Positions 10,690-13,224 of a stretch of DNA of 64,000 nt are shown piece by piece. This DNA is from Acidobacteriota bacterium. Its GTDB lineage: Bacteria; Acidobacteriota; Terriglobia; Terriglobales; SCQP01. The notes beneath the pieces were generated by a model, which did not search any database, was not told where the DNA came from, and was given only the letters and a program-made list of their open reading frames with translations. The stretch lies in NCBI GenBank assembly GCA_004299485.1, contig SCQP01000007.1:78623-142622 (forward strand). The letters run 5' to 3'. Position numbers and translations under genes: made by a program. The first letter of the stretch is position 1; each line of letters starts with the position of its first letter.

Positions 10690-11118
10690 CTACTTCGCGG
10701 GGATAGTAAAGGGCTTGCCCTTTTCGCCGACCTGGAAGACGAGCACTTCGGCGGGTTCGGTGGCGCTGAGGTTGCGCATCATGCGATGCACATGCATGGG
10801 CGGTTCGTAGAAGTAATCGCCGGCGCGGTAGGTTTTGGGCTGGCCGGGATCGACCTGGTTCTCGATTGAACCCTTCAGGATGTAGGCGAACACTGGGCCG
10901 GTATGCTCGTGCGGATGGCCGTGCTCGCCGGGAGCGAGCGTCAGAATGATGACGCTGGCCTCGGCGTTGGGCATGGGCGCCAGCGGCTCACGCATGAGGG
11001 TGCGCACGGGGGTGTGTTTCCCGGATTGCGCGGCCGCAAGCGCCGGCAGAGCCAGGGGGAGCGTGAGCAGGCCGGCGGCGGCCGAGAGCAGCGCGGTGTT
11101 GGCTTCGCGTCGTGTCAT
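10690..11118 (-). CDS. Secreted cupin-domain protein
   Basis: A 142-residue single-domain cupin. It begins with a signal peptide (MTRREANTALLSAAAGLLTL, cut near LPALAAAQ). The metal-binding motif 1 is PGEHGHPHEHTGPVFAYILKG split over residues 66-86 (three His and a Glu-like position), and motif 2 is PPMHVHRMMRNLS (about 114). Substrate unknown; such small periplasmic cupins may isomerise, oxidise or simply bind small molecules. The ATG at 11118 is chosen over an upstream in-frame ATG because AGGAGGAC lies 8 nt before it and because it overlaps the stop of the DUF3179 gene by 4 nt. It is the last gene of a three-gene operon. Confidence 0.85.
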   Translation of the reverse strand: MTRREANTALLSAAAGLLTLPLALPALAAAQSGKHTPVRTLMREPLAPMPNAEASVIILTLAPGEHGHPHEHTGPVFAYILKGSIENQVDPGQPKTYRAGDYFYEPPMHVHRMMRNLSATEPAEVLVFQVGEKGKPFTIPAK

Positions 11119-12128
11119 TGGGGTGAGTCCTCCTTGTAAAGCTTGGTGCCGGGATGGAATTCCGACCATGCAAACCAGAATTCTGGTTCCAGAATGAGCG
11201 AGCGCAGGCGCGCGCCGCGCAGGCGGCCAGAGAGGCAAACGCCATAGGCGTTCCAGAGGGAGTGCGTTTCCCGGTCGCGCAGGCGCGACGCGCCGGGGTT
11301 GGCAGCCTGGAAATGCAAATGGCGGCCGCGAGCTTCGGCGATGAAGGCGGTGGTGGTGTCGGAGGCGGGCTGATGCACCAACAGCACCGGCACACTGCCG
11401 AGCTGATCGTTGACGACCGGCGTTTTATTGAGCGCGGCCACGGCATAGGCTTTGACGACGCCACCCGCCTCAAGGCCCACAATCGTAGCGCGCGGCGGCA
11501 AGCGGTCATCATGGCCGAACGCGCCCTTGGGCGCACCGCCGCCGGCATTGACGATGCCCTGATCCAGAATCTGGTTCATGCGCCCGAGGCGGGCGGCGTA
11601 GCCGGGCAAAGGCTGGAGCACCTGTGTCTGCGGATGCTTGCGGCGCCATTCGCTCCACTTCGTGAGCTGGAACGGATACAGCTCGAGGTGCGTGCCCTTC
11701 AACGGCCCACTGATGGCGCTTGCGGTGGACTGCAGCCAGCGGCTACCGGTCTGGCGGTCGCGAAAGACTTCATTACCGCCATCGGCACCGGCGGTATCGA
11801 ACTGCAGCACGCGACCTTTTACAGCGGCCCTGAACACGAGGGCCGTATTGCAGTAGCTTCACCAGGTGACGGTGATCGGTCCATCGGGCATCTGGTCTTC
11901 GACGATGCCGTGCTGCGCCACAATCGCGGCTGGATAGGCGCGCGAAACGCCATCCTCGCTAACGCCAATGAGCAGATTCGAGGGTGCGAGAAAGCTGGCC
12001 TGCGCCGCAGCGACAAAATGGGGATGGTCGATGGGACGGTAGGGCAAAGGCTGCTGCGCCGGCAACACGCCAACGGTCGCGAACCCCACGGCGATGAGGA
12101 ACAGCAACCTCATGGGGCCATTATGCAC
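11115..12128 (-). CDS. DUF3179 family protein, probable selenoprotein (in-frame TGA = Sec)
   Basis: Two open stretches (12128-11862 and 11858-11115) are in the same frame and separated only by TGA at 11859-11861. The first ends DGPITVTW and the second continues SYCNTALVFRAAVKGR, giving TVTW-U-SYC-NTALVF. DUF3179 proteins normally read VTW/Y-C-xx-C-N/G-T-A here, so the TGA replaces the first Cys of the CxxC. Downstream motifs (EVFRDRQTGSRWLQS, ISGPLKGTHLELYPF) are intact, and a second DUF3179-like half follows (VVKAYAVAALNKTPVVND). Total length is 337 residues with Sec at 90, counted from the GTG at 12128; ATG at 12113 begins the signal peptide MRLLFLIAVGFATVG and may be the true start. It lies 4 nt after the upstream gene and overlaps the cupin gene by 4 nt. 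Alternative: a nonsense mutation. A redox or periplasmic role is inferred. Confidence 0.82.
11825..11845 (-). promoter_or_regulatory. Bacterial SECIS-like hairpin
   Basis: Immediately 3' of the in-frame TGA, in the mRNA sense, there are 13 nt, then CGGCCCU, a 7-nt loop CGUGUUC, then AGGGCCG: a perfect 7-bp stem. The loop begins 20 nt after the UGA and has G as its second base, matching the described bacterial SECIS consensus (loop 16-37 nt from UGA, G in the first two loop bases). Lower pairing (UAC with GUA) could extend the stem. The hairpin lies inside the coding sequence, as is normal in bacteria. Confidence 0.7.
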
Positions 12129-12132
12129 CCCG

Positions 12133-13224
12133 CTACTGATAAACGATATAGATCGGGCGCGGCGAGAGCGCCAGAATTTCTGCCGGCGTCATCAGGTGAT
12201 GGCCCCACTTCATGTCGTTGTGGTAGAAGAGCTTGAAGCCTGTGAACTGAACCGGCTGGTGCTCGATGAAATCGCGATAAGCGGCCTTCTTGTCACTGGG
12301 TGAGCCGAACCCATCCATATCCATCACGACCTCGACTTGCGGTCGCGGCTTGATGGCGCGGTAGTCGGTGACCATCGCCTGGGTGAAGCGGTGGACGACG
12401 AGAACTTTCGGCGGCAGGTGATTCTGCTCGACGATATTGGCCAGCCAGCGAACGGCAAAATCAATGTCGGAACCGCTGAGCGTGCCGCGCCACACGCCAG
12501 GGCGATGGCCATGCACCAGTGCGAATTCCGGGTCAATCGCCAGCTCGACGTTGGGCAACTTCATGTAGGGTTCAAGGCGCGGCAACTCCTGCTGCAGGCT
12601 GCTCCAGCCAGGTTGCACATCGAGGAACACCAGGCCATGCGCCTGATCGGCCATGTGAATGGCTTTCTCGATCTGCGCGGCGGGCATGCGCAGGCGGTAG
12701 TCGCCATCCGGGCCGCGGGATGCCTGCGCTGACACGGCAATGTAGTCCAGCGCAGGAATCACGGGCGTCGCGGGATCAGCCTCCGTCCAGGCGTTGACCA
12801 CGGTTTGCAGTTTGGTGAGAACATCGGCCGGCGGGTACTGGCCGAGAATGCCCATCTGCGTGGAGTAGAAATTGCCGTAATAGGCGACGATGCGGTGAAA
12901 GGGCAGCAGCGCACCCGCATCGGGATAAGCGGCATGCACGGGCCACAACGGCTTGGGACACGGCCGCAAAGGCGCCACCTTCTTCCGGTGCGGCTTGTGT
13001 TTGGAGGGCGCGCCGATCGGCTCAGCAGGGGGATCGACCGGGGTGGCAACCGCTCCCGGCGGCAGGCAATGGGTCTGCGGACGCCGATTCGCCAGCGCCA
13101 GCATTTTCGCGTTGTAAGCCGCTTCGTTGACCGTCGGCACGGGGGCAGATGGCGCTTGCCCGGCGGCACCGATGGCCACGACAGCTAGAACCAAGAACGA
13201 AACAAAAATCTTAATGCCCTTCAC
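12133..13224 (-). CDS. Secreted protein of unknown function
   Basis: A 363-residue protein not assigned to a named family. It has a Sec signal (IFVSFLVLAVVAIGAAG), a Pro/Lys/Arg-rich linker to about residue 95, and then a domain starting FHRIVAYYGNFYSTQMGILG. Strands such as PVIPALDYIAVSAQ, GLVFLDVQPGW, VELAIDPEFAL, KVLVVHRFTQAM and VEVVMDMDGFG are spaced by helices, which looks like a TIM-barrel arrangement with acidic residues at strand ends, as in glycoside hydrolases; this is inference. The start is GTG, with no clear Shine-Dalgarno sequence. It is the first gene of the operon with the DUF3179 selenoprotein candidate and the cupin. Confidence 0.75.
   Translation of the reverse strand: MKGIKIFVSFLVLAVVAIGAAGQAPSAPVPTVNEAAYNAKMLALANRRPQTHCLPPGAVATPVDPPAEPIGAPSKHKPHRKKVAPLRPCPKPLWPVHAAYPDAGALLPFHRIVAYYGNFYSTQMGILGQYPPADVLTKLQTVVNAWTEADPATPVIPALDYIAVSAQASRGPDGDYRLRMPAAQIEKAIHMADQAHGLVFLDVQPGWSSLQQELPRLEPYMKLPNVELAIDPEFALVHGHRPGVWRGTLSGSDIDFAVRWLANIVEQNHLPPKVLVVHRFTQAMVTDYRAIKPRPQVEVVMDMDGFGSPSDKKAAYRDFIEHQPVQFTGFKLFYHNDMKWGHHLMTPAEILALSPRPIYIVYQ

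Follow-up and report, generated by a model that had tools for sequence, protein, structure and literature searches.

A predicted DUF3179 selenoprotein gene with a cupin neighbour in an acidobacterial genome

The window, i.e. the whole 64,000-nucleotide stretch of acidobacterial DNA that was analyzed, carries on its minus strand a gene of the family DUF3179 (Pfam PF11376) interrupted by a single in-frame TGA, which is very probably decoded as selenocysteine (Sec). A redox-catalytic role of this residue is reasonably likely; an alternative that shares the Sec decoding and competes on the catalytic step only, namely that the Sec/Cys binds a metal and is not a redox nucleophile, is rather unlikely. 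Passages of PMC9312934 and PMC13188914 list PF11376 as a selenoprotein family with the motif UxxC/T, and the former credits a study of the Olavius algarvensis symbiont for DUF3179 selenoproteins. The earlier note on this DNA had guessed that seleno members were already named, which agrees with these passages and with the NCBI name 'DUF3179 domain-containing (seleno)protein', carried by five of the 120 homologues listed. The window gene is an added member of a family already listed as containing selenoproteins, with which it shares the UxxC motif; it differs from DUF3179 selenoproteins as reviewed in that its subclade pairs with a cupin gene. The string 'acidobacter' does not occur in PMC9312934 or PMC13188914, nor 'cupin' in the latter, a 2026 review. 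Passages of the open-access literature on DUF3179 give it no function, and among open-access literature on selenoproteins with Acidobacteria, cupin or Rieske no title was on DUF3179, although links to a fold or to cupins may be in print elsewhere. A predicted Rieske-like shape and a cupin neighbour are first clues to the role of this uncharacterized family, in a gene of a soil bacterium.

The gene, its in-frame TGA and its relatives

The gene comprises the following features:
11115..12113, minus strand: DUF3179 selenoprotein gene (predicted Sec), from the match of the joined frame to Pfam PF11376 (E 9.1e-64) and the sequence
12113 (ATG) or 12128 (GTG), minus strand: start of the gene, whose terminal TGA lies at 11115-11117 (sequence)
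11859..11861, minus strand: in-frame UGA, predicted Sec codon, residue 85 counted from the ATG, aligned with the first Cys of the relatives' CxxC
11850..11852, minus strand: Cys codon at U+3, putative resolving Cys (sequence; Cys there in 45 of 64 Sec forms)
12051..12113, minus strand: putative signal peptide MRLLFLIAVGFATVGVLPAQQ, from a reading of the sequence alone

The earlier note had described a TGA that links two stretches of the same frame, and had read them as a DUF3179 protein with TGA in place of the first Cys of its motif; the observation was upheld and the reading supported. Frames 12128-11859 and 11858-11115 (minus strand) make up one frame interrupted by TGA 11859-11861, with alike GC3 on either side (0.76 and 0.77). 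The PF11376 profile matched the joined frame across the TGA with 216.1 bits (cut-off 27; E 9.1e-64), and the frame covered profile positions 7-292 of 292. The ATG at 12113 is probably the best start, since a signal-peptide-like stretch then follows. Just upstream, a 363-aa ORF (12133-13224, minus strand) gave no Pfam match over the cut-off and no NCBIfam match, and had no relative in the other fetched loci.

Alignment to homologues, with hits that stopped short of query residue 90 left out, placed the TGA on their Cys. The codon was reached in 105 of the 106 fetched DUF3179 loci and was TGA, TGC or TGT in all 105. These loci yielded 96 distinct forms, 64 with exactly one TGA each (hereafter Sec forms) and 32 with Cys, counts that are not frequencies because the loci were picked mostly from TGA matches, with same-order Cys forms and automatically returned loci added. 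Nine named relatives comprised seven with TGA (Acidobacteria, Terriglobia, Candidatus Acidiferrales and Bryobacterales records), one with TGC (Bryobacteraceae) and a fragment, eight of them reaching the codon. In the window's family, DUF3179 was found in 8 of 14 genomes, and all nine genes found carry one TGA; in the phylum it occurs in at least 133 of 396 genomes, TGA and intact forms being mixed among the matches listed. At the protein level, Cys stands at the Sec position in 112 of the 120 listed homologues. The other eight, the window gene's own included, are 234-240 aa frames that begin past the UGA, showing how easily such Sec genes are lost in annotation.

Genuine termination at the TGA, or a misassembly there, with a pseudogene or two short proteins as the outcome, is very improbable given the conservation of the TGA. 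Such an explanation would fit database record P0002, in which the 240-aa frame downstream of the TGA is stored as a separate protein, and the finding, given below, that the window's hairpin taken alone is not unusual. However, TGA stands at the same codon in the assemblies of other genomes, the sole break falls on the one invariant Cys, GC3 is equal on both sides and the joined frame scores 216 bits.

The hairpin and the selenocysteine machinery

Downstream of the UGA lies a candidate insertion signal:
11825..11845, minus strand: SECIS-like hairpin CGGCCCT[CGTGTTC]AGGGCCG, 7 bp with a 7-nt loop (sequence and subclade conservation)

Its geometry was as earlier described, the loop beginning after 20 nt and having G as its second base; bacterial SECIS elements have a G early in the loop. 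Significance of the window hairpin alone was rejected, 3218 of 20000 synonymous recodings being equally stable. The proposal that it is a SECIS thus draws its weight from conservation in relatives, and not from the window sequence by itself. At the same place, CGGCCCT[CGTGTTY]AGGGCCG was found in eight of the nine distinct Sec genes of the window's subclade (window included), and the ninth, L137, showed a compensatory pair change (CAGCCCT/AGGGCTG). In these nine genes, which were picked for having TGA and whose close homologues commonly have Cys (112 of 120 listed), four of six degenerate hairpin codon columns were invariant versus one of 60 elsewhere (Fisher p 1e-4). The hairpin Arg was encoded by AGG in all nine, a codon used for 16 of the 259 Arg elsewhere in the same genes.

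Across all distinct forms, a hairpin (stem of at least 6 bp, G within the first two loop bases, any of five registers picked after inspection) was present in 59 of 64 Sec versus 7 of 32 Cys forms, five Sec forms having none in any of the five registers. The checks named in the earlier note (Sec machinery, alignment with Cys homologues and the hairpin) came out in its favour. In the register with a 5-nt loop at +20, five of seven pairs were changed on both sides among 23 sequences selected for forming the hairpin. Hairpin energies of Sec and Cys forms differed with a Mann-Whitney p of 7e-12, calculated over sequences that are not independent; assessed one by one against synonymous recoding, 21 of the 64 Sec forms reached p 0.05, and none of the 32 Cys forms did. 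All seven hairpin-bearing Cys forms were of the HTGLVW type. In the codon-freeze test, neither the HTGLVW Sec clade of 26 members (0/3 hairpin columns, 0/19 elsewhere) nor a set of ten HTGLVW Cys forms (0/4 and 1/61, respectively) showed a signal. By our reading, HTGLVW residues by themselves favour complementary codons, and for this reason no relic hairpin is claimed in the Cys forms. One genome, G002, holds two Sec-type DUF3179 paralogues, L018 of the window's type (loop at +20) and L025 of the HTGLVW type (loop at +15).

The genome to which the window belongs (3.3 Mb, 98.8% complete) was searched for Sec machinery, as the earlier note had advised, and all four components were found over curated cut-offs: tRNA-Sec (73 bits, anticodon TCA), SelB, SelA and SelD. 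A second match above the tRNA-Sec cut-off was a tRNA-Ser. Reading of the UGA as another amino acid, through near-cognate readthrough or a changed code, would be compatible with the sequence alone, but has very little probability in view of the presence of tRNA-Sec and SelABD, the conserved hairpin, the location of the one TGA at the Cys place in 64 distinct Sec frames, and the gene's own terminal TGA, an ordinary stop use of UGA in this host. Decoding of the UGA as Sec by the genome's own SelA, SelB, SelD and tRNA-Sec is predicted, with insertion probably directed by the hairpin just downstream.

In the window's family, tRNA-Sec was found in 9 of 14 genomes and in 7 of the 7 good ones; it was not found in G009 and G011, less complete genomes with the TGA form. 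Overall, 44 of 53 genomes with the TGA form had tRNA-Sec (32 of 36 of good quality), and in nine, four of them of good quality, it was below threshold in that search, which used stricter filters. Position of the TGA at the motif was established for 51 of these 53 genomes, all except G247 and G303, which were both without tRNA-Sec. Presence of the machinery is no predictor of the Sec form, since tRNA-Sec was also found in 26 of 42 genomes with the intact form only (residue read as Cys in 19; the other 23, with no stop listed, taken as intact). Among the genomes tested in the window's order, the Cys form goes with absence of tRNA-Sec: it was found in none of ten genomes of family f2 with the Cys form (G223 and G365, with weaker matches, lay outside the tested set), but is present in G097, whose f2 form is Sec. 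The ten f2 Cys forms group in the tree as one clade within a larger Sec-rich clade; this nesting, together with the absence of tRNA-Sec, suggests that Sec was replaced by Cys and that the machinery was lost along with it.

The cupin neighbour

Next to the DUF3179 gene the following features were found:
10690..11118, minus strand: cupin gene whose start overlaps the DUF3179 stop as ATGA (Cupin_2, E 3.8e-14)
11129..11135, minus strand: AAGGAGG, which likely serves the cupin gene as Shine-Dalgarno sequence (sequence)

The earlier note had the cupin gene coupled to the distal stop and dependent on readthrough. The overlap of its start with that stop was verified, but translation of the cupin may be independent of readthrough, as its own AAGGAGG precedes its start. 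A related cupin adjoins DUF3179 in all nine distinct Sec loci of the subclade (window included), downstream on the same strand in seven and convergent in two, after loci that overlapped at a single place (L018/L124/L133; L019/L126) had been counted once. Fourteen of the 106 fetched loci had a cupin; 12 of the 14 were Sec loci, and all were close to the window's type. Beyond the subclade, the fetched flanks, which were of limited length, showed no related cupin. Moreover, Cupin_2 is fused to DUF3179, at either end, in 19 of the 120 listed homologues. Pairing and fusion with cupins is the strongest functional link for DUF3179.

Repeats, predicted fold and putative active site

The window DUF3179 protein was shown to be a tandem duplication:
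11622..11996, minus strand: N-terminal repeat carrying the Sec; Rieske-like predicted fold
11160..11501, minus strand: C-terminal repeat, homologous to the N-repeat, with Gln at the Sec/Cys place

The structural matches listed were Rieske proteins (ferredoxins 2qpz and 2de5, NirD 2jo6 and PetC3 5cxm), and each repeat is predicted to have a Rieske-like fold without a cluster, with the Sec at the turn between two early strands. A hand count over the aligned stretches put the Sec at about 25-36 of 2qpz, before the CTH motif at about 44-46. Comparison of DUF3179 with Rieske profiles by hhalign gave no link (probability 3 and 10). DUF3179 differs from Rieske [2Fe-2S] proteins in having no C-x-H...C-x-x-H motif; inspection by eye of the translated window protein found neither C-x-H nor C-x-x-H cluster ligands. 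The Rieske fold is not known to host Sec.

The U-x-x-C had been taken in the earlier note for a redox pair. The window protein does have both residues, a motif shared with thioredoxin-like UxxC selenoproteins, but the structural matches of DUF3179 are Rieske proteins and family members can do without the second Cys: Cys at U+3 occurs in 45 of 64 distinct Sec and 29 of 32 Cys forms and is lacking in 19 and 3, respectively. Both Cys/Sec positions are therefore not kept family-wide, as they would be in a CxxC thiol oxidoreductase. Some Sec forms (L104, L106, L107, L108, L109, L110 and others) read U-PLA instead of UxxC and have no partner Cys.

The Sec/Cys position is invariant in 76 aligned N-repeats, as are one Asp, one Trp and one Gly, and one His and another Asp are nearly so, for which reason we infer that the Sec would be the catalytic nucleophile, with Asp/His in support. 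In the window protein, the Cys at U+3 may resolve the oxidised selenium. The product would likely be an extracytoplasmic selenol/thiol redox enzyme, secretion being suggested by the signal-peptide-like stretch. A metal site could instead be formed by the CxxC and the nearly invariant His and Asp, in keeping with the likeness of the predicted fold to a metal-cluster carrier and with the cupin partner, as cupins commonly bind metal; the second Cys is, however, absent from 19 of the 64 Sec forms and from three of the 32 Cys forms, and Sec in characterized proteins is mostly catalytic. On the redox reading, the DUF3179 protein and a metal-binding cupin would form an extracytoplasmic pair in which the cupin provides or uses up the substrate. 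As a whole, the picture of DUF3179 as a tandem, cluster-less Rieske-fold selenoenzyme, with its Sec/Cys site in a strand turn of an electron-carrier fold and working extracytoplasmically with a cupin partner, is offered tentatively, as somewhat more doubtful than not. The function of DUF3179 becomes testable through the fold lead, the cupin partner and the invariant Sec/Cys, close to which Asp and His lie in the sequence. By way of contrast, a Rieske domain with both ligand motifs is encoded elsewhere in the same genome (L169, G000:C16:322429-322680).
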